DNA from: Prevotella sp.
Lineage (GTDB): Bacteria; Bacteroidota; Bacteroidia; Bacteroidales; Bacteroidaceae
Assembly (NCBI GenBank): GCA_017478025.1
Contig: JAFVGZ010000026.1
Coordinates: forward strand, 24,655 to 88,654
Reading direction: 5' to 3'
Length of the DNA: 64,000 bases
Within the stretch, counting starts at the first letter, position 1, and each line of letters opens with the position of its first letter. Of the stretch, positions 49,253 through 64,000 are shown in pieces. Below the pieces are notes generated by a model. It searched no databases. It saw only the letters and a program-made list of their open reading frames with translations, and was not told where the DNA came from. A program made the position numbers and the translations under genes.

Positions 49253-50299
49253 CTATTCCAGGATGAAGGCGATAAGCTCCTTCATCAACTCCCCTGCCGG
49301 AGTGTTGACATTGTCGATGCCCTTGATGCGGGTGTCGGTTTCTTTTATCTTTGAAATGATAGCCAAAGTTCTGCGTCCGTTGAAATTTCTCATTCCTGTC
49401 ATAAAATCTTTCACGAACCAAGCTTTTGGCAAATTCAGCTGCTGCATTATCGCGGCCTCGTTGACAGGACGCGGTGCATAGTAGCACAACATCAGGTCGC
49501 GGAAATAGTTGAAAAGCATCGAAAGAACCTGCGGAGCTGCTGCCGCCTTGGGATTATTGTCAAAATACTTGATGATCCTGAATGCCTTCAGCGCATCTTT
49601 GCTTATGAGCGCATCGCGCAGTTCAAATATGTTATACTGCTTGCTGATGCCGATGTGCTGCTCTATCATCTCGTTTGTGATGACGCGTGGCTGTCCTTCG
49701 GGAAATGCCACAAGGAGTTTGTCCAGCTCGGAAGCAAGGCGTTTCAGGTCGCCGCCGATGCATGAAGCTACTACATACGCCGTGCGCGAGTCTATTTTAG
49801 CGTTATATTCAGGCCGCTTCACGTAATCATTGATGAATGCCACGATGTCGCGATCATACTTTGGTGGGTCGCTGACGAGCACGCGGCCCACAGCAGCAGC
49901 TCCTGTAACGGTTTTCTTGCGTCCGTCAATGGGTTTCCCGTTACAGCACAACACAAGGACTGTGGTCGCTACAGGCTTCTGCAGATACTTCTCAAAGAGG
50001 TCGAAATCCTTCAGTTTCAGCGCTTCGCGAACGACGATAACCTGTCGTGCCGCCATAATGGGATAGCGAGAGGCGTTGTTTATGACCTCTCTGGCTGAAG
50101 AATCTGAGCCATAGACAACGGTGAGGTTGAAGTCTTTCTCCTCCTCAGCGAGGACATTTGCCGTGATATAGTCGCTCACGCGGTCAATGTAATACGCCTC
50201 CTCGCCCATCAGCAGATAGACAGGAGCCACGTTGCCGGAGCGCAGTTCCGACATTATACTCTCGTATGTCTCGCGTGTTGATGCTTTCTTTTCAGCCAT
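49253..50299 (-). CDS. holA: DNA polymerase III subunit delta
   Basis: 348 residues, clamp-loader subunit that opens the sliding clamp. AAA-like domains 1-2 without Walker A, as is usual (YLLMGEEAYYIDRVSDYI at about 25; PPKYDRDIVAFI), and a helical collar domain at the end. Start and upstream stop overlap by one base (TGATG). It shares a transcript with aguB and aguA and ends at a strong terminator. Confidence 0.93.
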   Translation of the reverse strand: MAEKKASTRETYESIMSELRSGNVAPVYLLMGEEAYYIDRVSDYITANVLAEEEKDFNLTVVYGSDSSAREVINNASRYPIMAARQVIVVREALKLKDFDLFEKYLQKPVATTVLVLCCNGKPIDGRKKTVTGAAAVGRVLVSDPPKYDRDIVAFINDYVKRPEYNAKIDSRTAYVVASCIGGDLKRLASELDKLLVAFPEGQPRVITNEMIEQHIGISKQYNIFELRDALISKDALKAFRIIKYFDNNPKAAAAPQVLSMLFNYFRDLMLCYYAPRPVNEAAIMQQLNLPKAWFVKDFMTGMRNFNGRRTLAIISKIKETDTRIKGIDNVNTPAGELMKELIAFILE

Positions 50300-51186
50300 C
50301 AGTCATCAATAAATCGTTTCGTTATGTCTGCGTACTCTTCTATGCGACGGTCGCGCAGGAACGGCCACCATCGTCTGACATTCTCTCCGTGAGTCATGTC
50401 TATGTTTACGATAACACTCTCCTCCTCGTCTTCTGAGGCTCTGTACAGCAGCTCTCCCTGCGGTCCTGCAATGAAACTGGAGCCCCAGAACTGTATTCCC
50501 TCCGTCTGTCCGCTGGGGTCAGGCTCATGCCCTACCCTGTTTACGGCCAGCACGGGAATGCCGTTGGCAACTGCATGTCCTCGCTGTACCGTCGTCCAGG
50601 CCTCGCGCTGCCGCTGCTGCTCGTCCGGAGTATCGCTGGCAGCATAGCCTATGGCTGTGGGATATATGAGTATCTCAGCGCCGCTAAGGGCCATCAGGCG
50701 CGCTGCTTCGGGGTACCACTGGTCCCAGCACACCATTACGCCAAGCCGCCCTACAGAGGTGTCTATCGGCTTAAAACCGAGGTCTCCGGGGGTGAAATAG
50801 AATTTCTCGTAGTATGCAGGATCATCTGGAATGTGCATCTTGCGATAGCGTCCTGCTATGCTTCCGTCACTCTCTATAACCACCGCGGTGTTATGATACA
50901 GCCCTGCTGCGCGGCGCTCAAAGAGGGATGTGACAATAACAACGCCATTCTCACGCGCCAGTTCGCCAAAGAATGAGGTGGAAGGACCGGGTATCGGCTC
51001 TGCCAAATCAAACTTCTCTACGTCCTCTGTCTGGCAGAAATACAGGCTATTGTGCAACTCCTGCAACACAATGAGCTGTGCGCCACGCTGTGCTAAATCA
51101 GCTATTCCGCGAGCCAGTCGCAGCATATTGTCCTTGCGGTCAGCGGTATTGTGCTGCTGCAGAAATCCTATTTTCAGTTCTCTCAT
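50299..51186 (-). CDS. aguB: N-carbamoylputrescine amidase
   Basis: 295 residues, nitrilase-family hydrolase turning N-carbamoylputrescine into putrescine, CO2 and ammonia. The Glu-Lys-Cys triad is visible in LQELHNSLYF, RKMHIPDDP and MVCWDQWYPEAA. The NNAD-type length and the agmatine deiminase gene 33 bp upstream identify the pathway from agmatine to putrescine. Confidence 0.95.
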   Translation of the reverse strand: MRELKIGFLQQHNTADRKDNMLRLARGIADLAQRGAQLIVLQELHNSLYFCQTEDVEKFDLAEPIPGPSTSFFGELARENGVVIVTSLFERRAAGLYHNTAVVIESDGSIAGRYRKMHIPDDPAYYEKFYFTPGDLGFKPIDTSVGRLGVMVCWDQWYPEAARLMALSGAEILIYPTAIGYAASDTPDEQQRQREAWTTVQRGHAVANGIPVLAVNRVGHEPDPSGQTEGIQFWGSSFIAGPQGELLYRASEDEEESVIVNIDMTHGENVRRWWPFLRDRRIEEYADITKRFIDD

Positions 51187-51219
51187 AGTGAATTCGTGTG
51201 GGTGTGAAGGTGGTTACTG

Positions 51220-52470
51220 TCAATTACCACCTGTATATGTGGTTAGCGGTATCTGCATGGTGCAGCAATGTATGGAGCCGTGCTGACGTATGATACTCCT
51301 GCTGTCGATGGGTATAATCTCCCTATCGGGGAAGGCATCACGTATCGCGTTGCATGCAGCATCGTCAAGTTCGGGCTGTCCGTAGGTCGGTACTATCACA
51401 GCTCCATTGATTATCAGGAAGTTGGCATACGTGGCGGGCAGGCGTTCCTCTGTCTCCTGGCCGTCATCGTCGGTTACTGTCTGGTATATAGCCGCCGGTT
51501 GTGGCAGCGGTATGAGGCGGTATGGCTTGCCGTCGATGGTGCGCAGGCTCATCAGCTCTTGCTCCAGCGCCTGAAAGTCCTCGTACTGCTCGTCCTCGCT
51601 GTCGTAGCATTTATGGTAGAGCAGGGTGTCATCGGGGGCTATGCGCACAATGGTGTCAATGTGTCCGTCGGTATCGTCGCCCTTCAAGGCTCCGTGATGC
51701 AGCCACACGATGCGCCTCGCCTTGAGCCGAAATCGCAGTTCCTGCTCTATCTCGTCGCGCGTCAACGGCTGGTTGCGATGCGGCGCCATGAGACACCCTT
51801 CAGTAGTGAAGACTGTTCCCCTTCCGTCGCTCTCTATCGAACCGCCTTCGAGAACGAAATCATCATGGTCGGACAAGCGGACAGAGACAGCCCCGCTGCC
51901 CTCTCCTGTAGGAACGGGTGTTTGCAAATCTGTAGATTTCGTGGGCTCTTGGGCATAAGTGGTATTGGGCGACTGAGATGTAACAGCAGAGTCCTCTGCA
52001 TGTGTAGCATCCGCCATATCTGACTCTCCCTGAGGGAGATAGCATGAGGTTACAGGTTCAAATGCTCCGTCCTCAAAGAGTGTTCGGGTGATGCGATTGT
52101 CAAGGTTCCATCGGAATTTCTCGCCCCATCCATTGAAGCGGAAATCAAGCATCGTGAGTGCTCCTGTGGCATCATCCTTTAGCGTTATGGGTCCATGATC
52201 CCTCGCCCAGGTATCGTTGGTCTTACAATGGCAGATATACACACGCGCCATCTGCTCGCGGGTCAGTCGGCTGCTCAGTAGCGCGCCCACCTGAATAGGG
52301 TGCGGGGTAGCGATTATCAAGCGCTCAAAGCGAGTGATGCTTGCCGCCATCTCCACGTATGTCTTGGTGATGTCGGCAAGCATCGGAGCCCAGTCAGTAT
52401 TCTCGTGCGGCCAGGTCAGCAGCACGTGGCTCTGCGGTTCCCATTCGGCGGGAAGTCGTAAGCGTATCAC
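51220..52470 (-). CDS. aguA: agmatine deiminase
   Basis: 416 residues, guanidino-group-modifying enzyme that converts agmatine to N-carbamoylputrescine and ammonia. NDTWARDHGPI, DFRFNGWG, LEGGSIESDGRGT, HTDGHIDT-like DDTDGHIDTI and the catalytic Cys in GSIHCCTMQIP are present. Residues 148-199 are an extra Ser/Thr-rich, low-complexity insertion between conserved blocks. The start is GTG overlapping the zinc-ribbon gene stop (GTGA). Works with aguB downstream. Confidence 0.95.
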   Translation of the reverse strand: MIRLRLPAEWEPQSHVLLTWPHENTDWAPMLADITKTYVEMAASITRFERLIIATPHPIQVGALLSSRLTREQMARVYICHCKTNDTWARDHGPITLKDDATGALTMLDFRFNGWGEKFRWNLDNRITRTLFEDGAFEPVTSCYLPQGESDMADATHAEDSAVTSQSPNTTYAQEPTKSTDLQTPVPTGEGSGAVSVRLSDHDDFVLEGGSIESDGRGTVFTTEGCLMAPHRNQPLTRDEIEQELRFRLKARRIVWLHHGALKGDDTDGHIDTIVRIAPDDTLLYHKCYDSEDEQYEDFQALEQELMSLRTIDGKPYRLIPLPQPAAIYQTVTDDDGQETEERLPATYANFLIINGAVIVPTYGQPELDDAACNAIRDAFPDREIIPIDSRSIIRQHGSIHCCTMQIPLTTYTGGN

Positions 52471-54277: not shown

Positions 54278-54521
54278 CAAAGTTACGATTAAGTTTTGAG
54301 ATATGCAAGAGAAAAGCTTGTTTTTTCTATTGCATATCCAAGACGGAGTAATTTAGACCGTAGGTCAAAGTTACGATTAAGTTTTGAGATATGCAAGAGA
54401 AAAAGCTTGTTTTTTCTATTGCATATCCAAGACGGAGGACTCCGCGAAGCGCCTGAGCACCGATGGAGCGCAAGAAATTAGACCGTAGGTCAGAGTTGCA
54501 GATTAAGTTTTGAGATATGCA
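54278..54521 (-). repeat. tandem hairpin repeats carrying promoter boxes
   Basis: Copy 1 54278-54353 and copy 2 54366-54439 are almost identical; a third, truncated copy is at 54490-54521. On the minus strand each has stem GATATGCAA-T-AGAAAA / TTTTCT-C-TTGCATATC, then CTTAATCG and TAACTTTG. Between copies 2 and 3 an extra 37 bp is inserted. Copy 1 supplies the nif3 promoter box. Confidence 0.85.
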
Positions 54522-54534
54522 AACACGACATAAG

Positions 54535-55767
54535 TTATTCTGTTGGTTGCACTTTTTTCTTTAGCTTTCCGATGGAATTCTCGAGGCTCTCTGTCGGCTC
54601 GATGATGTTGTAGTCAGCCCAGAAGTGTGGGTCGTCGAAGTATGCTACCTTGTCGTAGAAGCGTTCTTTCACTCCAAACGACGAACGTCCCTGCGGCCGC
54701 CTTACCGCCTTACCGTGCTCCAGACGGTCGGTTACCACCATCTCGCTGACGGCGGTAAATGTGCGGGCAAAGAGGCGCCGCTTCCAATCGCAGTTGAAAC
54801 GCATCTCGTTCCTGATGTAATTAAGGCGTGTGACACCCTGCTGGTCGGTATGGTAAACTATCGTGGTGCTGAGCATCTTAGGACGAAACCGCAGACCGCG
54901 CGGCTTGCTTACCAGCATGTATTCGGAGGCTATCTGCCAGTCGCTCGTGTCTAACTGCAACTCGGCCCTTGATATGGTGTATGTCTCACGGTCTATATAG
55001 AGCCGCCCGCCCATCTGCGGGTACAGAATGTTTTTGTTGGGGTGAATGAGAATCACGTAGTGGGGCCGGTCGTTGATGTTGACAGGGGCTTCCATTGACA
55101 GGCGACACTGCCGGAACGTGTTTTCGTTGAGCAGATAGTCGGGGTTCTTTGCCACATCAGCCATGATTGCCACGAGTGGGCCGCCCTGTATCTTCACGCC
55201 CAGGGTGTCTTTAGCCTTCATGCTCATCAGTCGCCGTCCTTTCAGGATAGCTACGGCATCGTGGTCGGCGGCGTATTGGTATCCGCTCTTATACATCTCT
55301 GTCACGGCCTCAGCAACACAGATAAACTGCGAGCCACGTTGGGCGGTCTCTCTGTAGAAGCATCGCAACAGCTCCGTCTCCTTCGGATAGTTCTGGGTAA
55401 CACGGCTCATAGCCGCCTTGACGATGCTCAGCGGATCGTCGATAGAAACAATGACTTCCCTCAACTCTACAGTACTGTTGACCATAAGGATTCGAAGCGG
55501 TTCGGTAACATTGTCAGCCACAGGGACACGGCGTGTCTTGTAACCGATGTGGCTTACTTCGATGTAACGGGGCCTATGGTCCGTCTTCAGCGTAAAGCGC
55601 CCTTCGCTGTTGGTTACGGTATATATGTCCTTACCCTCGGTCACAATGCTGACATGACTCAACGGCCTGCCTTTATGCTCGTCAAGCACCACGCCGCTGA
55701 TAACTGTCTGTGCCTGAAGTACAGCCACCGCAAAGAGCATCATCACTATAGTCATCAATCTTCTCAT
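54535..55767 (-). CDS. carboxypeptidase-regulatory-like domain outer-surface protein
   Basis: 410 residues. Signal peptide (MTIVMMLFAVAVLQAQ), then a CarboxypepD_reg-like beta domain (VISGVVLDEHKGRPLSHVSI to about residue 95). The rest (100-400) resembles the DUF5686-type region of Bacteroidetes outer-membrane proteins but is short, with no clear barrel end. Promoter TAACTTTG at 55824-55817. Function unknown. Confidence 0.8.
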   Translation of the reverse strand: MRRLMTIVMMLFAVAVLQAQTVISGVVLDEHKGRPLSHVSIVTEGKDIYTVTNSEGRFTLKTDHRPRYIEVSHIGYKTRRVPVADNVTEPLRILMVNSTVELREVIVSIDDPLSIVKAAMSRVTQNYPKETELLRCFYRETAQRGSQFICVAEAVTEMYKSGYQYAADHDAVAILKGRRLMSMKAKDTLGVKIQGGPLVAIMADVAKNPDYLLNENTFRQCRLSMEAPVNINDRPHYVILIHPNKNILYPQMGGRLYIDRETYTISRAELQLDTSDWQIASEYMLVSKPRGLRFRPKMLSTTIVYHTDQQGVTRLNYIRNEMRFNCDWKRRLFARTFTAVSEMVVTDRLEHGKAVRRPQGRSSFGVKERFYDKVAYFDDPHFWADYNIIEPTESLENSIGKLKKKVQPTE

Positions 55768-55816
55768 AACTCAAACACTTTTATTGTTTCTCTATCGGCT
55801 TTCGCCCACCTGAGGG

Positions 55817-55824
55817 CAAAGTTA
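55817..55824 (-). promoter_or_regulatory. promoter -7 box
   Basis: TAACTTTG on the minus strand, 49 bp before the start at 55767. Confidence 0.6.
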
Positions 55825-55906
55825 CTAAATAATTCTGAAACAATAGCATAAGTACGGATTTTTTCATTCAATATTTCCGAAGTTTCACACCTTAAAAGGT
55901 CAAAAG

Positions 55907-56743
55907 CTATAGCTCTGGGTCGCTCGGCGATGTAGGAGAGGCCTTTGTCAAGTTAAAGAAGTGAAGAATGAACTGTGTAACCATACGGCCTTGGTGGCAC
56001 CGTTGCTTAATGGATTTTACAGCCGCACTCTTGACGTGTTCATCTTCATCTTTCGCATGGTTTTTGATTAAGTTAAGTTCGTATTCTGGTGTGAATTCTG
56101 GGTGTCCCTGAAACGTCAGGATATCATGACCTATCCTAAATCCCTCATATTGGCAAAAATCGCTGTGGGCAATGGCAATGGCACCAGGGGGGAGAACGGT
56201 CACTTGGTCATGGTGATTATACAAAAGACGCAGACGGCCATTGGGGAAATAAAAATGCATTATTTCGTCTGAGATGACTGACTCACGAATACCTATTCCC
56301 CATCCTCCAGTGTACCGTTGCACTTCTCCACCTAATGCTTGGGCGATAATCTGATGGCCAAAACAAATGCCAACCAGTTTGCTATGGAGTGAAGATGCGT
56401 CTCTTATCCACTGCTTGAGTCCCAGAATCCACGGATCATTATCATAAGCGGAACTGTTACTTCCTGTAACCAGATACAGCTCATTTTTCTCCAATTTCTT
56501 GGGTAAAACGCCCGCCATTACAGGAAATACCTCAAACTCTATGGAGTCATCAACAGAACGGAACATTTCCCTGAACATTGACGCATAGGAGGGAATCTCC
56601 GGCGGCAATAGTCCGGGGAATGTGTCACACAACAATATATTAATCTTCGGTCTTTTTGTCATTTCATTACCAGTCAGGGCAATTTTCAACTGTAGGGTGT
56701 TACCCTCACAATGAACATCAGGGTTTTCACTCATCATTATCAA
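55907..56743 (-). CDS. class I glutamine-amidotransferase-like hydrolase
   Basis: 278 residues, stand-alone GATase1 fold. Triad: Cys127 in VGICFGHQIIAQ, His214 and Glu216 in FQGHPEFTPE. The family includes gamma-glutamyl peptidases and GMP-synthase-like amidotransferases; with no synthase partner, hydrolysis of a gamma-glutamyl or amide bond is the best guess. The first 27 residues precede the conserved fold; the start may instead be MTKRPKINILL (56662). The 3-bp gap to the upstream gene favours the longer form. Last gene of the ATP-grasp operon. Confidence 0.88.
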   Translation of the reverse strand: MIMMSENPDVHCEGNTLQLKIALTGNEMTKRPKINILLCDTFPGLLPPEIPSYASMFREMFRSVDDSIEFEVFPVMAGVLPKKLEKNELYLVTGSNSSAYDNDPWILGLKQWIRDASSLHSKLVGICFGHQIIAQALGGEVQRYTGGWGIGIRESVISDEIMHFYFPNGRLRLLYNHHDQVTVLPPGAIAIAHSDFCQYEGFRIGHDILTFQGHPEFTPEYELNLIKNHAKDEDEHVKSAAVKSIKQRCHQGRMVTQFILHFFNLTKASPTSPSDPEL

Positions 56744-56746
56744 ATA

Positions 56747-57676
56747 TCAAAGTGTATGTATCATAAATAGCAAAGCATTCTGTAGGACGACGGGACGATT
56801 GTGGGCAAAGAACACAGTGCCTTCGACTGTCGCTTTTACATCGTTGAGTATCTGTCCGTTATAAGGGTCGATAATGTGAGCCAGTGACTCGCCAGGGAAT
56901 ACGCGGCTACCTGCATTCACTAACCGATAGAAGATGCCTGCGTGACGAGCCTTTACGTGGAGGAGTTCTGCCTCGTCGATGACGGCAGATTCGTAGGCGG
57001 CACCCAAAGAGCCGTGACTAACTATGCCCGTCCGTTGCATCATGCGCAGGATGGCATCGATGGTCTCGCCACTGGTATTCAGGTCGATCTGGTTGGTCCG
57101 TCCCGCATAGACGGAGAAAGCCTTGGTTGCCCAAAGTTGCCAGTTGTAGTTGAGCAGCGTGGTGTCAAACGGGCGTGGCTTGCAGAAGGTGACATACTTC
57201 ATGCCGAAGAGCCTGGCAGTCTCAACATCCTCATAGCCCGTCTTCAGCATCCGCACGTGGGGGATGAAGTCGCCAGGCACATAGTAACTGGCCAGTTGCA
57301 GGCCATACTCAAAACCATTGAGGGCTGTGAAGATGGCAGCGGCAATGCGCTGGGTGGTTTCCCCCTGGTCGTAGCCGGGAAACATGCGGTTGATGTCCGT
57401 CGAGTCCATTGCCCAGAAACGGTGGCTGACATTCATCGAGAACGGATTACATGAGGGAATGACCAGCAGGCTATGGCCTTCAACAATTTCACCACGCTGT
57501 TCCATCATCGTCAGGCGGCTCACCAGTTGCGAACAGATGTACTGTTGCTGCACCTCGTCGCCACGCATGGCGCCCACAATAGCCAATGTCTTGGCTCCTT
57601 CGCCAAACCGATAGCCCTGGATACGGAAATTATCGCGGTAGGGCGAGTTCATTTCAAATATAGTTTCTACTCTCAT
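56747..57676 (-). CDS. AstE/aspartoacylase-like protein, probable pseudoenzyme
   Basis: 309 residues, paralogue of the next gene with the same length and C-terminal beta domain. Compared with it, the zinc His is Arg38 (GAMRGDE), the second zinc His position is Ala129 (LQLASYY), and the catalytic Glu position is Tyr190 (SVYAGRT); only Glu41 and DINRMFPG remain. Not truncated and not frameshifted, so it is probably maintained. May bind the substrate or partner the active copy. Lies 55 bp after the active paralogue. Confidence 0.85.
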   Translation of the reverse strand: MRVETIFEMNSPYRDNFRIQGYRFGEGAKTLAIVGAMRGDEVQQQYICSQLVSRLTMMEQRGEIVEGHSLLVIPSCNPFSMNVSHRFWAMDSTDINRMFPGYDQGETTQRIAAAIFTALNGFEYGLQLASYYVPGDFIPHVRMLKTGYEDVETARLFGMKYVTFCKPRPFDTTLLNYNWQLWATKAFSVYAGRTNQIDLNTSGETIDAILRMMQRTGIVSHGSLGAAYESAVIDEAELLHVKARHAGIFYRLVNAGSRVFPGESLAHIIDPYNGQILNDVKATVEGTVFFAHNRPVVLQNALLFMIHTL

Positions 57677-57731
57677 AAGAATACTTCATTCTTTTAGTCA
57701 CTTCGTTTTGTGAAAGCGCTTCGCGATTACT

Positions 57732-58661
57732 TTACTCTTCACTCCTGAAGATTCGTGCCATCAGCGAGCCTTCATAGACTATCGGGTAGGCACGAATGGT
57801 GAACAGATAGCCATCAGTTGGAGAAATAACGTTACTGAGCGCCTGGCCACGAAGCGGATTGACAATCTGTCCGATGGTCTGACCGCGGCTGACGTTGATA
57901 CCGCATTTCAGTTCTGTCAGGAATACGCCTGACGTCTCGGCATTGAGGAATGTCACATGGTCGCCCTTGCAGACGATGGGTCTGGGCAAATCTGCACTGG
58001 CACTGCCTTTCCACATGCCCATGCGCATCATCAGATGAAGGATGCCTTCTACCAGCCGACGGCACATCTTATGATTGATGCGCTGACCGACACCCATCTC
58101 CACCACCAGGCAGGGCGTACCGGTGGAATTGAGCGAGTGGGCCAGCGTTGCCTCCAATACAGTGGCAGCATCATGAACCCAGATGAAGTCCATGCCCAGC
58201 CGTTCGGCAAATGGCATGAGCCATTCGGCATTCTGTACATTGATGCGCACCTGGGGTGTCTCCCGCAGAAAGAGATTGCTGGAATGGATGTCGATGACCA
58301 TATCAGCCCCCTTGATGTCCTCGATGATGGCATGAGCGGTCTGTTCTGCCATCGTGCCTTGTGGGTCGCCGGGGAAGATGCGGTTCATGTCGAGGTCGAA
58401 ATTGGGAATACCCCGCTGGATGGTGTCGATGCCCAGAGGATTCAAAGCCGGATAAATCTCCAGTGTTCCACGGAGCAATTCGGGATGCTCACCTACGATG
58501 TGTGCCAGTTCGTAGCACACCATCTGCCCCTCCAGTTCGTCGCCGTGAGTGCCTGTAACCACACAGAAGCGGAGTCCTTCCTTACCGTTCTGTATGACAT
58601 TCTTACGGATGCGGAACTGTTCATCGACAGGCAGTTCCGTGGATACTATTGTCTTAATCAT
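57732..58661 (-). CDS. succinylglutamate desuccinylase/aspartoacylase-family zinc hydrolase
   Basis: 309 residues, M14-like fold. Zinc ligands His39 and Glu42 (GTHGDELEG), His126 (VIDIHSSN), general acid/base Glu188 (LVVEMGVG), and DLDMNRIFPG. The C-terminal 80 residues form a barrel-sandwich-like domain. Would cleave an acyl-amide or peptide bond. Its ATG overlaps the transglutaminase stop (ATGA), so it is translationally coupled. True AstE arginine-catabolism neighbours are absent, so another substrate is likely. Confidence 0.9.
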   Translation of the reverse strand: MIKTIVSTELPVDEQFRIRKNVIQNGKEGLRFCVVTGTHGDELEGQMVCYELAHIVGEHPELLRGTLEIYPALNPLGIDTIQRGIPNFDLDMNRIFPGDPQGTMAEQTAHAIIEDIKGADMVIDIHSSNLFLRETPQVRINVQNAEWLMPFAERLGMDFIWVHDAATVLEATLAHSLNSTGTPCLVVEMGVGQRINHKMCRRLVEGILHLMMRMGMWKGSASADLPRPIVCKGDHVTFLNAETSGVFLTELKCGINVSRGQTIGQIVNPLRGQALSNVISPTDGYLFTIRAYPIVYEGSLMARIFRSEE

Positions 58662-59413
58662 ATCTCATGTAATGTAACGTGAACCGTGGTTTGCTGACGG
58701 GCCTGACCTGTGTACATGCCACGGCTGACGGAGCAGTCGCGGGCATCGCGCCCGTGAGCCAGTTTGACGTAGCCGTTGCTGATGCGGCAATTGTGGGTGG
58801 GGTCGAAGCCCAGCCAGTTGTAGCCGTCGAAAATCTCAACCCAGGCATGGGTCTCACCCTCGCCCACAAGGAATCCGTTGACGTAGCGGGCAGGAATACC
58901 TTGCCTTCGGCAGAGGGCTATCATGAGGTGGGCAAAGTCCTGGCATACGCCCTGACGCGACTGCATCACCTCTGCCGCCGTGGTCTCTATTGTGGTGGCC
59001 TGTGGCTGATACGCAATGTTCTCATTAATCCATTGGCAGATGTCGTAAGCGGCTTGGATGCTGTTTTCGCTAATATCCGTAATCCCGTCTCCAATTGTAG
59101 TAAATGGTGTGGGCTGACGGTAGAGGAGCAGGTTCTCGCCGCGATACTTGACCAGATAGGTGTCGGTAGCAACGATGCCCATGCTGACATAGGCGAATAC
59201 GGTGTGCGGCTCGGTGGTTCCGCCAAAGAGGATGCGGTTATAAAACGTATCGCTGCCAGCCTGCAGCCAGTAATTAGGCGACATGACCAGATGTTCCTGC
59301 TCCACCGTCTGGCAGGCATTACCGACTGGTTGGCAGCGGAGCATGACGGCATGGGCTGGAACAGGCTCGGAGAACTTGACCACCGTCTGATAGTTATACA
59401 GATAGCGTTTCAC
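58658..59413 (-). CDS. transglutaminase-like thiol hydrolase/ligase
   Basis: 251 residues, cytosolic (no signal peptide). N-terminal beta domain typical of bacterial transglutaminase-like proteins, then the papain-like core with Cys147 (QGVCQDFAHL), His179 (GETHAWVEIF) and Asp194 (GFDPTHN). This group regularly accompanies alpha-E and circularly permuted ATP-grasp genes. The start is GTG, overlapping the alpha-E stop (GTGA). Might cut or transfer the amide product of the ligase. Confidence 0.92.
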   Translation of the reverse strand: MKRYLYNYQTVVKFSEPVPAHAVMLRCQPVGNACQTVEQEHLVMSPNYWLQAGSDTFYNRILFGGTTEPHTVFAYVSMGIVATDTYLVKYRGENLLLYRQPTPFTTIGDGITDISENSIQAAYDICQWINENIAYQPQATTIETTAAEVMQSRQGVCQDFAHLMIALCRRQGIPARYVNGFLVGEGETHAWVEIFDGYNWLGFDPTHNCRISNGYVKLAHGRDARDCSVSRGMYTGQARQQTTVHVTLHEI

Positions 59414-60108
59414 ACTCTGACCAGTTGGTTGATAAATTTCAGCAATTTGTTCTTGTATTCCACATCATTGAGATTGAAACGCTCCTCGATAATGAGACTG
59501 TTGAGCTGTCCCTCGATGTGGTCGTCGACGATTGTAGAAATCTGACTGAGGTAGCGTTTCAGCGAGTCGTAGGCCAGTGCCACCCGCTCGTAGGGATAGT
59601 CGAAACGCAGTAGCATGTCGAGATTCTCCACATTGCGCCCAGTCATCATGATATAGAGTGCCTTATGGTTGCGCAGACGCTGCTCGGCAGAGCCCCAGAA
59701 CGCCAACGACCAGTCGATGACGGGTTGCAGGGCAGTGACGTTCATTTCGCGCCGCTCCTTGCACTCTTTCATCAGTGCCACACTCATCTCCAGATAACTG
59801 AGGGTTTCGCTCATGATGTTTTCGCGCAGGAGGATGGCATTGTCCTTGGCCTTGACCTGTGCCGCCATCACCGAAGCGATGTTGTCTTCGTCGTACATCA
59901 TGCCGAAGGTGAATTCTTCACTCGACTGATAGACACCGTTGACATCGAGACGTGTCCATAGTAAGGAATAGTCTTCCAGTTCGCCGTCGATCATCTTGTC
60001 GTAACACTTACGCAGCAAATGCAGCGTGATATACACTCTCTCTTCATAGCGCCCCAGCCAGTAGAGGCTGTTCGCCTTGGTTGCCGATATCAAATTTTTC
60101 TGTGTCAT
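59410..60108 (-). CDS. alpha-E domain protein
   Basis: 232 residues, all-helical. The family start ANSLYWLGRYEERV is seen about ten residues in, so I use MTQKNLIS at 60108, 23 bp after the ligase stop; a longer form to 60150 would overlap the ligase. The protein is shorter than the roughly 310-residue relatives I know. Alpha-E proteins accompany circularly permuted ATP-grasp ligases and probably form a complex with them or hold the substrate. Confidence 0.88.
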   Translation of the reverse strand: MTQKNLISATKANSLYWLGRYEERVYITLHLLRKCYDKMIDGELEDYSLLWTRLDVNGVYQSSEEFTFGMMYDEDNIASVMAAQVKAKDNAILLRENIMSETLSYLEMSVALMKECKERREMNVTALQPVIDWSLAFWGSAEQRLRNHKALYIMMTGRNVENLDMLLRFDYPYERVALAYDSLKRYLSQISTIVDDHIEGQLNSLIIEERFNLNDVEYKNKLLKFINQLVRV

Positions 60109-60131
60109 CCTTCCAACTTTTAACTTTTCAC

Positions 60132-61460
60132 TTATGTTTCCATCACCCATGTATCCTTAAAACCTCCGCCCTGTGAGGAATTGACCACAAACGAGTTGGG
60201 GTTTCTCGAGAAGCGTGTCAAGCCGCTCTTCCACACCTTCACTGCCTTGCCGCTGACGACGAAGGCTCTCAAGTCGGCCTTGCGCCACACGGTCTGGTCA
60301 CCCTCCAGAATCTCCAAGTCCTTGAAGTCGATGACTTCCTGTGCAATCCAGCGGCGAGGCTCGCTTCTGACCAGTTTCGTCAGGTCGGCAAGTTCCTTCT
60401 CGGCAAGGTCTTTGCCAAACACCACCCCATAGCCTCCTGCCTCGCTGACATCCTTGATGACCAGCCGTCGGATATTTTCCATCACATAGTTGCGGTCTTT
60501 TTCGAAATAAGGCAGATAAGTGGGAGCGTTCTGCAGGATGGGCTGCTCGTCGAGATAGTATTCCACCATCTTCGGTACGAAATAGTAGATACCCTTGTCA
60601 TCGGCCACGCCATTGCCGATGGCATTGATGAGTGCCACGTTGCCAGCCTTGTAGGCCTGCATCACATTGGGGATGCCCAGCAGTGAGGAAGCCTCAAACA
60701 GCAGCGGGTCCATATATTCATCGCTCACACGGCGATAGATGCAGCCCACGCGGGTCTTCTCCTTGTAGATACCCGCATAGTACACCTTGTTGTCCTCCAC
60801 AAACAGGTCACCGGGATAGGCCAGCGTAGCCCCCGTCTTCTCGGCAAAATAACTATGCTCAAAATAGGCCGAGTTATAGCGACCTGGGGTAAGGATGACC
60901 GAGATACCCCGACCGCCGTTCATCTCTTCCATCATCGTGGCAAGCAGACGGGCATAGTCGCGGTTTTCGGCCACGGCATTTTGGGTAAAGGTCTGTGGCG
61001 ACACCTTGCGTGTAATCTCGCGGGCTATCATCGGATAACTGGCACCAGAGGGGATACGCAGGTTGTCCTCCAGCACATACCACTGTCCGTCCTTGCCTTC
61101 GACGAGGTCGATGCCTGCGATGTGGGCATAGACCTCTCCTGCCGGACTGATGCCTTCACATTCAGGCATATAGCCCTTCGAGGAATACACGAACTCCTCG
61201 GGTACGATACCATCCTTGATGATGCGCTTGTCGTGATAGACATCCCATAGGAACTTGTTCAGTGCCGTCACACGTTGGCGGAGTCCTTTCTCCAGATAAG
61301 CCCAGTCATCACAGGAAATGATTCGGGGGATGGAGTCAAAAGGGAACAATTGTTCGTTGAAAATTCCATGCTTATAGACCCCGAACCGAACTCCAAAACG
61401 TTCCATCCATTTGTTGACCGTATTACGGCTGTCAACCAATTCGTTTATCCTGATATTCAT
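60132..61460 (-). CDS. circularly permuted ATP-grasp ligase
   Basis: 442 residues, DUF404/DUF407-type (CP_ATPgrasp). Hallmarks: VLEDNLRIPSGASYP (about 129-143), VIKDVSEAGGYGVVFG in the ATP loop, DLRAFVVSGK, and the C-terminal NSSQGGGFKDTWV. Predicted to join a carboxylate to an amine with ATP, making an amide or short peptide. Known from comparative genomics with alpha-E and transglutaminase genes; no defined product that I know of. Lies 58 bp after the ammonium transporter gene. Confidence 0.93.
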   Translation of the reverse strand: MNIRINELVDSRNTVNKWMERFGVRFGVYKHGIFNEQLFPFDSIPRIISCDDWAYLEKGLRQRVTALNKFLWDVYHDKRIIKDGIVPEEFVYSSKGYMPECEGISPAGEVYAHIAGIDLVEGKDGQWYVLEDNLRIPSGASYPMIAREITRKVSPQTFTQNAVAENRDYARLLATMMEEMNGGRGISVILTPGRYNSAYFEHSYFAEKTGATLAYPGDLFVEDNKVYYAGIYKEKTRVGCIYRRVSDEYMDPLLFEASSLLGIPNVMQAYKAGNVALINAIGNGVADDKGIYYFVPKMVEYYLDEQPILQNAPTYLPYFEKDRNYVMENIRRLVIKDVSEAGGYGVVFGKDLAEKELADLTKLVRSEPRRWIAQEVIDFKDLEILEGDQTVWRKADLRAFVVSGKAVKVWKSGLTRFSRNPNSFVVNSSQGGGFKDTWVMET

Positions 61461-61518
61461 ATTTGTATTTGTGTTGCTTAGTTTATGTACTTATTTACGT
61501 CCATTCCCGCTGACGCGC

Positions 61519-62916
61519 CTACCCGTTGCCTCTCGTCTCTTTCTCGCGGATATGCTCTTCATATTCCGCTATTTCCCGTTCGCCGACATGGGCCAGACCG
61601 TAGTGCTCATCGTGCTGACTGTAGTCGAGTCCAACCTTCTCACTATAGACGGATACACGCATGGGTAACAGTTTGTCTATCAGCTTATAGCCCATCCAAC
61701 TCATGCCGAATGTATATACAAAGACAATGACGATGGCCAGCAGATGGTAGAGGAAAATCACGAATCCGTCCCACGTGCCTGCAATCAGTCCTTCTTGGAT
61801 GAAGATACCTGTCAGCACAGTTCCGAAGATACCGCCTGTGCCGTGAGTGGGGAATACGTCGAGGGCATCGTCGATGCTGCTACGTGAACGCCAATAGACG
61901 GCAATATTGCAGATCAGCGTGATGACGAAGGCAATGAAGATGCTCTGCCCCACCGTGACATAGCCTGCTGACGGGGTAATGGCCACCAAACCTACCACAC
62001 ATCCGACAGCGGCTCCCATGGCCGAAGGCTTGCGGCCACGAAGGCAATCGAAGAATATCCAGGTCATCATGGCAGTAGCCGAGGCTGTATTGGTATTCAG
62101 AAATGCCTTCACTGCCTGTCCGTCAGCATGAAGCGACGAACCCGCATTAAAGCCGAACCAGCCCAGCCACAGCAGGGCCGCTCCCAACAGCACAAAGGGA
62201 ATGTTGGCTGGTTCGCTTCTGCGGGTATCTGCTTTACGCCTGCCTAAATAGATGGCTCCGGCAAGAGCGGCAACACCACTGGAGGCATGCACCACGATGC
62301 CTCCGGCAAAGTCGATGACTCCCCAACGGCAAAACAGCCCCTCTGGATGCCATGTCATGTGGGCCAGTGGACAGTAGATCATAAAGAAGAAAAACATCAT
62401 GAAGAACATATAGGCAGAGAAACGCACACGTTCGGCAAACGACCCTGTGATCAGCGACGGGGTGATGATGGCAAACTTCATCTGAAACAGGGCATAGAGA
62501 GCCAGTGGAATAGTGGCTCCACCTAATATATTACCCGCGGGTGTAGTATAGACAGCACCTCCTACGTTGTGGAACATGGGGAACGTCAGCGGATTGCCAA
62601 TAACACCTCCGATATCATCGCCAAAACAGAGTGAGAATCCAATCACCACCCACAGAACAGAAATCAGTCCCATAGCAATAAACGACTGGAGCATGGTGCT
62701 GATGACGTTCTTCGCTCCTACCATACCGCCATAGAAGAATGACAGTCCAGGTGTCATCATCAGCACAAAGATGGTGGCCGTGATAAGCCAGGCTACGTCA
62801 GCAGCAGAAATCACCGACCAGTCGCACTCAAATGCGGGCTCACCTACAAACACACCGGCAATGGCTATCAACGTCATTGCTGCCATCAAGATAATCCAAC
62901 GTCTCTTTACTTTCAT
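61519..62916 (-). CDS. amtB: ammonium transporter
   Basis: 465 residues, eleven-helix Amt/Rh channel. Twin His of the pore in GGIVVHASSGVAAL and DVFPTHGTGGIFG; Phe-gate region MTPGLSFFYGGMVGAKN. The C-terminal tail is longer than in E. coli AmtB (YSEKVGLDYSQHDEHYG, then a charged helix to the end). No glnK gene is adjacent, which is unusual. A full promoter precedes it. First gene of the operon with the ATP-grasp cluster. Confidence 0.95.
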   Translation of the reverse strand: MKVKRRWIILMAAMTLIAIAGVFVGEPAFECDWSVISAADVAWLITATIFVLMMTPGLSFFYGGMVGAKNVISTMLQSFIAMGLISVLWVVIGFSLCFGDDIGGVIGNPLTFPMFHNVGGAVYTTPAGNILGGATIPLALYALFQMKFAIITPSLITGSFAERVRFSAYMFFMMFFFFMIYCPLAHMTWHPEGLFCRWGVIDFAGGIVVHASSGVAALAGAIYLGRRKADTRRSEPANIPFVLLGAALLWLGWFGFNAGSSLHADGQAVKAFLNTNTASATAMMTWIFFDCLRGRKPSAMGAAVGCVVGLVAITPSAGYVTVGQSIFIAFVITLICNIAVYWRSRSSIDDALDVFPTHGTGGIFGTVLTGIFIQEGLIAGTWDGFVIFLYHLLAIVIVFVYTFGMSWMGYKLIDKLLPMRVSVYSEKVGLDYSQHDEHYGLAHVGEREIAEYEEHIREKETRGNG

Positions 62917-62945
62917 ACAATTGTCATTTTGTTATTTACTGAGTG

Positions 62946-62976
62946 CAAATATATTACAAAATGAAAGAAAAACAAA
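62946..62976 (-). promoter_or_regulatory. promoter of the amtB/ATP-grasp operon
   Basis: On the minus strand TTTG (62976-62973), 19 bp, TATATTTG (62953-62946), 30 bp before the amtB start. No other promoter box is seen between amtB and 55907. Confidence 0.75.
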
Positions 62977-63108
62977 AGAAATCAAAGCATTTTGCGTGTT
63001 AAAATATTGAATTGCTTACATTATCTAACATTATTATTTGAATTTTTGTTACAAATTGACACAAATATGCCTTAAATACTTTCGATTTCCTGTCAAATTG
63101 TAAGTTGG

Positions 63109-63162
63109 CTCCGTTTTGGATGTATAAGAGAAAAAACGAGTTCTTTCTCTTGTGTATCTCAA
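63109..63162 (+). repeat. hairpin repeat, diverged copy
   Basis: CTCCGTTTTGGATGTATAAG... to TCTCAA aligns with the reverse complement of the 54278 repeats. The stem is kept although bases differ: three pairs become G-U. The -7 box is not present in this copy. Confidence 0.75.
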
Positions 63163-63213
63163 GTGTGACACGGGGACTGTCACATTTCCTTGGGATTGCG
63201 GATATATGGATAA

Positions 63214-63259
63214 TAGAACAAACCTTCACCACCCATAAGGGCAGTGAAGGTTTGTTCTA
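63214..63259. terminator. 16-bp perfect hairpin
   Basis: TAGAACAAACCTTCAC (63214-63229) pairs perfectly with GTGAAGGTTTGTTCTA (63244-63259), with an inner CCC/GGG in the loop. It lies downstream of the DUF5675 gene on the minus strand. No T-run follows, so terminator is inferred. Confidence 0.55.
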
Positions 63260-63263
63260 ATCA

Positions 63264-63347
63264 ATGGTCAATGGTCCGCTCGGCCCTATGGGACGCTTGC
63301 GTAGTATAACGGAGCAAGAATGGTCAATGGTCAATGGTCAATGGTCA
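63264..63347. repeat. ATGGTCA heptamer array split by the 44-bp element
   Basis: Two ATGGTCA units (63264-63276), then the 44-bp element (63277-63320), then four more units (63320-63347). The last unit supplies the stop codon of the next gene (TCA at 63345-63347). Confidence 0.85.
63277..63320 (+). repeat. 44-bp dispersed element, copy B
   Basis: Same length and ends as copy A (62-105). Differences are confined to a 3-bp core (TAT versus AAA) and a 7-bp block (GTATAAC versus ACAACGT). Confidence 0.75.
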
Positions 63348-63779
63348 ATCCTCAACGCTCACCCACACCATTTCCTGTCTGTCCTCGCAGTCTTGTATCT
63401 CCTCGGTCAGGCTTATGACGTGCTGCTTTGATCGGCTTACGAAACCCTTGCTGGTGTTCTCGCCAAGCAAGATGCAGCCACGTGTTTCCTTCACCGTGTT
63501 GCCCTCATGGATGAAGATACCCCAAAAGCCCGGTACGGAGATCAGTTGTGGGCGCATCTTCATCATCTTCGGCATCCAGTGCACGTGGCAGACATACGCC
63601 CCTGTGGGGATGGCGGTCTTGCCCGGCACCTTTGTTTCTTGAATCGACATGCTGCTCATGCTGCTCTTAAAGCCACGATCCTGGGGCTCCAGCGTGTTGC
63701 AGCGAAAAACTCCGTTCACATACAGCTCACCAACGGTGTAGCCTTCCTTCTTCCAACGTCTTCTGATTTCTATTTTCAT
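63345..63779 (-). CDS. DUF5675-like protein, phage-associated
   Basis: 144 residues. The family pattern GELYVNGVFRCNTLEPQDRG, IPTGAYVCHV, FWGIFIHEGNT and RGCILLGENT is present, with the last two resembling catalytic His/Cys of L,D-transpeptidase-like folds. Such genes occur in Bacteroidetes prophages. No other phage gene is in view, so it may be a remnant or the edge of an element beyond the window. A GGAGG ribosome-binding site precedes the start, unusual for this genome. The stop comes from a heptamer array. Confidence 0.85.
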   Translation of the reverse strand: MKIEIRRRWKKEGYTVGELYVNGVFRCNTLEPQDRGFKSSMSSMSIQETKVPGKTAIPTGAYVCHVHWMPKMMKMRPQLISVPGFWGIFIHEGNTVKETRGCILLGENTSKGFVSRSKQHVISLTEEIQDCEDRQEMVWVSVED

Positions 63780-63870
63780 TACTTTTCCTCCCTTTCTTTA
63801 TTGGTTAGTTTTCTATAAGTGTTCTTTGATATTTCTTCAATTAAGCCTGCTTTTCTTAAATTTCTCATCC

Positions 63871-63878
63871 TACCTTTG
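63871..63878 (+). promoter_or_regulatory. -7 box near the window end
   Basis: TACCTTTG, 55 bp before a second identical box at 63926. It has no clear -33 element. Confidence 0.4.
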
Positions 63879-63901
63879 CAGTCGGAATCGAATAACAAAG
63901 A

Positions 63902-63933
63902 TTTGTATAAACAAAAGTTAATTTGTACCTTTG
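63902..63933 (+). promoter_or_regulatory. promoter reading out of the window
   Basis: TTTG (63902-63905), 20 bp, TACCTTTG (63926-63933): full consensus on the plus strand. No gene starts before 64000, so it serves a gene or RNA beyond the window. Confidence 0.65.
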
Positions 63934-64000
63934 TTGTAGAAAGGATGGATTAACCTCCAGAGGGTACTCTATAATTTCCGTAAGACCAGAGTCTACAATT

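Follow-up and report, generated by a model that had tools for sequence, protein, structure and literature searches.

What do seven genes that lie head to tail, all on the - strand, do for the rumen gut Bacteroidales bacterium that carries them? They span positions 55907..62916 of a 64,000-nucleotide stretch of a Prevotella sp. contig (JAFVGZ010000026.1), which we call the window, and each of the seven open reading frames (ORFs) has a Pfam match: Ammonium_transp, CP_ATPgrasp_2/1, Alpha-E, Transglut_core with Bact_transglu_N, AstE_AspA_cat twice, and GATase class I. These matches bear out every family named in the initial annotation, which had read the seven genes as parts of one pathway. The conserved unit is instead a five-gene core, comprising a circularly permuted (CP) ATP-grasp ligase, a short alpha-E protein, a transglutaminase-like protein and two AstE-type proteins (AstE1 and AstE2), with two optional additions, the ammonium channel gene amt2 and the GATase gene. 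We hold with moderate confidence that the core is the form taken in Bacteroidales by the ATP-grasp/alpha-E/transglutaminase amide-ligase module and that it shares its control with nitrogen-assimilation genes.

A contig scan with the ATP-grasp protein found relatives encoded in 207 stretches; the best 80 of these (72–99% identity) were used. These loci, numbered here with the prefix L, come from Prevotella, Bacteroides, Parabacteroides, other Bacteroidales groups, one member of the Marinilabiliaceae and some organisms with Candidatus names. The alpha-E, transglutaminase, AstE1 and AstE2 genes all follow ATP-grasp in 61 of the 62 loci that extend 4.2 kb or more downstream of it; in the exception, L088, no separate transglutaminase and AstE1 genes were found. 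Of 66 testable loci, 15 have Amt2 near the core (a further 14 were not judged), and the GATase is near it in 10 of 63 (17 not judged). These two aside, no neighbour cluster accompanies the core at more than 6 of the 80 loci, whose neighbours are partly annotated. Gene-order conservation in relatives, chosen beforehand as the test, thus held for the five-gene core and failed for the seven-gene set, and the idea of a single conserved seven-gene pathway is not supported.

The same five genes occur in L174–L177, which represent four further family codes within the order. The distribution of the core is patchy, and the block is tightly kept. ATP-grasp matches were found in 14 of 295 genomes of the order, nine of them at 65% identity or above and the others weak or accompanied by a longer alpha-E. 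AstE2 matched in 14 of 100 relatives, twice as a short fragment, while in a phylum sample of 395 the AstE2 profile matched the window genome alone. One relative scored as AstE2-negative, G032, nevertheless has, at a contig end, ATP-grasp next to amt2. Some copies of the core are broken, with AstE1 in two ORFs in L085 and ATP-grasp split by a stop into two ORFs in L177. Genes for the alpha and beta subunits of a 2-oxoacid:acceptor oxidoreductase lie directly after AstE2 and before the GATase in close relatives (L033:6914-9776, L034:13690-16549, L040:13739-16598).

The core proteins are conserved at the residue level. In the ATP-grasp protein, 227 positions are at least 97% conserved across 75 distinct sequences, and its conserved residues align to 3N6X. 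The alpha-E match covers positions 6–164 of the 294 in PF04168, and the structure model is helical, with a pLDDT of 89.7. Residues C157, H189 and D204 of the transglutaminase-like protein are conserved in 67 sequences. Pfam places these three families in adjacent genes, and the earlier proposal that they form a probable amide-forming module is supported. AstE1 conserves H39, E42, H126 and E188, which align to 3cdx and 2qj8, so the zinc ligands of the HxxE...H type and the catalytic Glu are kept. It shares fold, zinc ligands and catalytic Glu with the DoeB/AstE/AspA zinc deacylases, but its score with the DoeB model is 61.6 bits, below the cut-off of 402.7. AstE2 retains the AstE/AspA fold over its whole length, but R38, A129 and Y190 replace His, His and Glu, leaving E41 as the sole ligand; it also retains D94-x-N96-R97 and has an invariant N176-Y-N-W-Q180 stretch. 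The description of one AstE as active and one as inactive therefore holds at the residue level. Conservation of AstE2 beside an active AstE suggests that it may be a sensor or an allosteric partner.

Judged by its gene families, the core is a variant form of the ATP-grasp/alpha-E/transglutaminase module found in the Anbu operon, whose proteobacterial forms are published as controlled by nitrogen limitation (PMC5491218, PMC7801951). Loci from other Bacteroidota combine ATP-grasp and full-length alpha-E with a proteasome-fold gene (Anbu) and transglutaminase (L162, L164, L166), show an Anbu-type set without a recognised ATP-grasp (L165), or carry ATP-grasp, alpha-E and transglutaminase without Anbu between them (L163, L167, L168); no AstE was seen in L162–L168. 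Unlike the Anbu operon, the core has a short alpha-E and carries AstE1 and AstE2, a zinc hydrolase and a pseudoenzyme, where other Bacteroidota have Anbu. The proteasome fold (PF00227) had no match in the window genome, which is 84.7% complete, and a control search was positive in 10 of 14 genomes; no Anbu was thus found in the window genome.

A link to nitrogen comes from an operator-like palindrome, TTACA-N3-TGTAA, first seen on aligning the amt2 promoters of relatives of the window. The same promoter stands directly before ATP-grasp in L037. The test set comprised core operons without a same-strand upstream amt2, of which 66 had 300 bp upstream and 54 remained after removal of near-copies; L037 was left out because it had been noticed by eye, giving 53 core heads. 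The same loci supplied a background of 149 upstream regions, reduced from 165 by near-copy removal. Sites with up to two mismatches numbered 1.36 per 300 bp before core heads and 0.33 in the background (Mann–Whitney U test, p 6.8e-12). Two or more sites occurred at 24 of 53 core heads versus 12 of 149 background regions, and a site with at most one mismatch at 17 versus 9. The arm TTACA ranks first among 30 arm permutations, and 3 is the best gap of those from 0 to 8. The sites are also phased: 31 of 48 pairs up to 160 bp apart are separated by multiples of 31.5 bp, within 1.6 bp, a fraction reached by 0 of 2000 random placements.

The palindrome is shared with nitrogen genes. Nineteen heads of glnK, gltB and amt2, taken both from core-bearing genomes and from genomes that lack the core, had 1.68 sites (p 6e-9). 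In the window genome a perfect palindrome occurs at two places, 200 bp before glnK and inside an ORF, and gltB is preceded by sites at -114 and -178. Places with at most one mismatch number 69 in 2.93 Mb, and the 600 bp before glnK and gltB hold two of them, against about 0.014 expected by chance. Because the palindrome before the core also stands before glnK, gltB and amt2, the core probably belongs to a Bacteroidales nitrogen regulon, and the nitrogen connection drawn in the initial annotation gains support. Both the shared operator and the Anbu relation go beyond that annotation, and a single literature search for such a Bacteroidales nitrogen-regulator motif found none. Single one-mismatch sites elsewhere in the window genome, which could be chance, lie 243 bp before a glycogen debranching gene (L256:2032) and 16 bp before a branching-enzyme-like gene (L245:2068).

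Published expression data point the same way for relatives of the module. The NtrC-regulon tables of Burkholderia cenocepacia enter DUF404/407, DUF403 and two transglutaminase genes at -8.2, -9.4, -9.4 and -6.0 (PMC5491218), and Pseudomonas putida PP_2686 to PP_2688 are reported as 11- to 37-fold up on nitrogen limitation, a response assigned to NtrB/NtrC (PMC7801951); PP_2687 and PP_2688 we infer to be alpha-E and ATP-grasp. If the operator reading is true, two distant bacterial groups would put the module under nitrogen control. In P. ruminicola, glnK-amtB-PRU_1977-asnB is listed among the most ammonium-responsive genes, at 38- to 69-fold (PMC5552732). That cluster resembles the present locus in that amt2 sits in such a cluster in relatives and the operator-like palindrome is shared; it differs in that the window amt2 stands apart from glnK and heads the core.

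The two optional genes have histories of their own. Where Amt2 is near the core it lies upstream on the same strand in 10 loci, divergently in 3 and downstream in 2, and in a quick tree of the 80 ATP-grasp sequences its state changes 7 times, at least 5 of them on well supported branches. Among 29 relatives' loci with the amt2 subfamily (L178–L206, 3 with the core), amt2 is followed directly by pyrG in 11, by ATP-grasp in 3 and by asnB in 1, is directly preceded by asnB in 2 more, making 3 beside asnB, and is divergent from gltB in 6; in L217 the operon order is glnK-amt-u234-amt2-pyrG. In the window genome gltB and glnK-amt-u234 are on contig C14, so its amt2 was probably relocated to the core. 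The reading of an Amt without GlnK stands to the extent that no glnK adjoins amt2, and has a plain history: the same subfamily sits in the GlnK operon of L217, and the window genome yielded a single P-II gene, on C14 beside another Amt. A 234–251 aa gene directly follows the GlnK-paired Amt in nitrogen clusters (L215:11250-12005, L217:7289-7993); the L217-type copy has no Pfam match. In position the gene is like PRU_1977 of P. ruminicola. The GATase was found in 4 of 100 relatives, all with AstE2, and its triad C127, H214 and E216 is conserved in 7 distinct relatives. Its best match among PDB sequences is gamma-glutamyl peptidase 1 (9k7i, E 4e-23), in keeping with its earlier description as gamma-glutamyl-peptidase-like.

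The best reading of these observations is an ammonium-linked module for synthesis and turnover of an amide or isopeptide, with a ligand-binding pseudoenzyme. Under ammonium scarcity a common regulator would alter expression of amt2 and the core. The ATP-grasp enzyme, held or loaded by alpha-E, would activate a carboxylate with ATP and join it to an amine or ammonia, and the resulting amide would be trimmed or hydrolysed by the transglutaminase-like enzyme and AstE1. AstE2, with its two conserved motifs, could bind the compound without cutting it and so regulate or channel it, while the GATase, where present, would remove gamma-glutamyl or glutamine amide nitrogen. Taken as a whole, the module would store nitrogen for a time in an amide or isopeptide, or recycle it through one. 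We regard as unlikely the stronger proposal of a cyanophycin counterpart in gut Bacteroidales, a new amide or isopeptide nitrogen reserve built and mobilised by the core, in which the ligase stores, AstE1 and the transglutaminase-like enzyme release, AstE2 senses, and an as yet undescribed Bacteroidales nitrogen regulator binds the phased TTACA-N3-TGTAA repeats and controls the whole. Cyanophycin metabolism (CphA1, CphB and the AstE-type dipeptidase CphZ) likewise pairs an ATP-grasp ligase with an AstE-fold amide hydrolase and has a nitrogen link, but the core ATP-grasp is from another family and is joined by alpha-E and transglutaminase-like genes. Cyanophycin itself is an unlikely product, because CphA1 reached its TIGR02068 cut-off in 0 of 18 core-bearing genomes.

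Protein tagging and untagging, proposed in the literature for the related Anbu operon (PMC5666114, PMC6376114), would mean that proteins receive a small amine or amino acid from ATP-grasp and transglutaminase and lose it again through AstE1. The intact transglutaminase triad would suit this, but the proteasome-fold partner was not found in the window genome and the structural neighbours of the AstE-type proteins are DoeB and CphZ. AstE/AspA enzymes are known for acting on small N-acyl amino acids and dipeptides, which also counts against tagging, and we think it improbable. The pull-downs reported for the Anbu operon proteins, moreover, found no specific interaction among them (PMC6376114). 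Scavenging of an external amide, such as a rumen peptide or N-acyl amino acid, with ATP-grasp used for activation alone and nothing stored, accords with the predominance of hydrolase-like genes (AstE1, transglutaminase-like, the optional GATase), and nitrogen control suits it as well as storage; with a ligase-family gene retained in the block, and no transporter fixed to the core since no further neighbour cluster recurs beyond the 6 of 80 loci given above, we find it quite unlikely. Very unlikely, in our judgement, is an ammonia-using amidotransferase set in which Amt2 and the GATase feed ammonia to the ATP-grasp ligase, as in other pairs of GATase and synthase. Ammonia- or glutamine-using enzymes do often follow amt2 in relatives, as in the pyrG, ATP-grasp and asnB cases above, but the GATase and Amt2 accompany few cores, the GATase is closer to gamma-glutamyl peptidase than to GMP synthase subunits (E 8e-11), and the core's two hydrolases would be left unneeded.

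Several observations weigh against an amide-ligase module under nitrogen control. In the P. putida data PP_2685 (Anbu) changes just 1.1- to 4.8-fold (PMC7801951), and Anbu operon expression is described as unchanged under various conditions, nitrogen limitation excepted (PMC5666114). The sole transglutaminase gene named in the Caulobacter NtrC study, hvyA, rises in the ntrC mutant (PMC10274813), and the report on P. ruminicola is inconsistent on the direction in which ammonium acts (PMC5552732). Neither glutamine nor glutamate stimulated the published phosphate release, which may be no more than ATP hydrolysis (PMC6376114). For the operator, weaker enrichment is also seen with a related arm, TATCA (p 9e-7), and with a gap of 7, and core regions are more AT-rich than background (0.68 versus 0.60), a bias addressed by 100 shuffles of the core regions, which gave a mean of 0.46 and a maximum of 0.74 sites. 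No site precedes 15 of 54 core heads or 4 of 19 nitrogen heads (one gltB, three amt2), and the 19 include possible near-copies and some heads viewed before the test. None of the five copies at the window operon is perfect, each having one or two mismatches. Amt2 is near so few cores, and occurs in at least 13 relatives of the genus Prevotella with no AstE2 match. The case for the Bacteroidales core is built from sequence.

The layout of the operon largely follows the initial annotation (Table 1). The GTGA overlap of alpha-E and transglutaminase (59413-59410) and the ATGA overlap of transglutaminase and AstE1 (58661-58658) were both found. Full-length GATase relatives have 239–254 aa, so the GATase probably starts at 56662, giving a gap to AstE2 of 84 bp and not 3. 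For alpha-E the longest ORF starts at 60150, and the lengths of relatives (mostly 229–235 aa) make 60108 the more likely start. The promoter pattern matched at the one visible promoter; of its 7 matches in the window (0.61 expected from shuffles), the other six all lie outside 55907-62916. A terminator scan of 54500-64000 found no - strand site between operon genes, with 6 found against 7.8 expected from shuffles. Upstream of the operon, after a DUF5675 gene, GACCATT units form a short tandem run at 63318-63350. Two - strand genes at 50299-52470 presumably encode an N-carbamoylputrescine amidase and an agmatine deiminase.

Table 1. Genes, promoter and operator-like sites of the operon, in window coordinates.
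Feature	Position	Strand	Evidence or remark
amt2, ammonium channel (465 aa), optional head gene	61519..62916	-	PF00909 E 8e-104
CP ATP-grasp ligase (442 aa), core gene 1	60132..61460	-	PF14403 E 8e-137; 3N6X E 1e-112
Short alpha-E (232 aa), core gene 2	59410..60108	-	PF04168 E 7e-18
Transglutaminase-like cysteine enzyme (251 aa), core gene 3	58658..59413	-	PF01841, PF08379; 3isr E 2e-22
AstE1, predicted zinc hydrolase of AstE/AspA fold, core gene 4	57732..58661	-	PF24827; conserved residues
AstE2, conserved AstE pseudoenzyme, core gene 5	56747..57676	-	
Stand-alone class I GATase, optional	55907..56743 (likely start 56662)	-	PF00117
Bacteroidales-type promoter TTTG-N-TAnnTTTG	62946..62976	-	pattern match
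Operator-like palindrome TTAGATAATGTAA	63016..63028	-	1 mismatch to TTACA-N3-TGTAA; perfect in L030, L032, L033, L034, L035
Operator-like site TTTCATTTTGTAA	62954..62966	-	1 mismatch; 62 bp from 63028 site; inside promoter spacer
Degenerate operator-like site TGTCAATTTGTAA	63049..63061	-	2 mismatches; 33 bp from 63028
Degenerate operator-like site TTACAATTTGACA	63091..63103	-	2 mismatches; out of phase with other sites
Degenerate operator-like site TTGCACTCAGTAA	62936..62948	-	2 mismatches; overlaps promoter end

The literature searched gives no established product for the ATP-grasp/alpha-E/transglutaminase module. The nitrogen link of its Bacteroidales form would supply a growth condition and a promoter signal for seeking that product, and the operator array offers a lead to a Bacteroidales nitrogen regulator.

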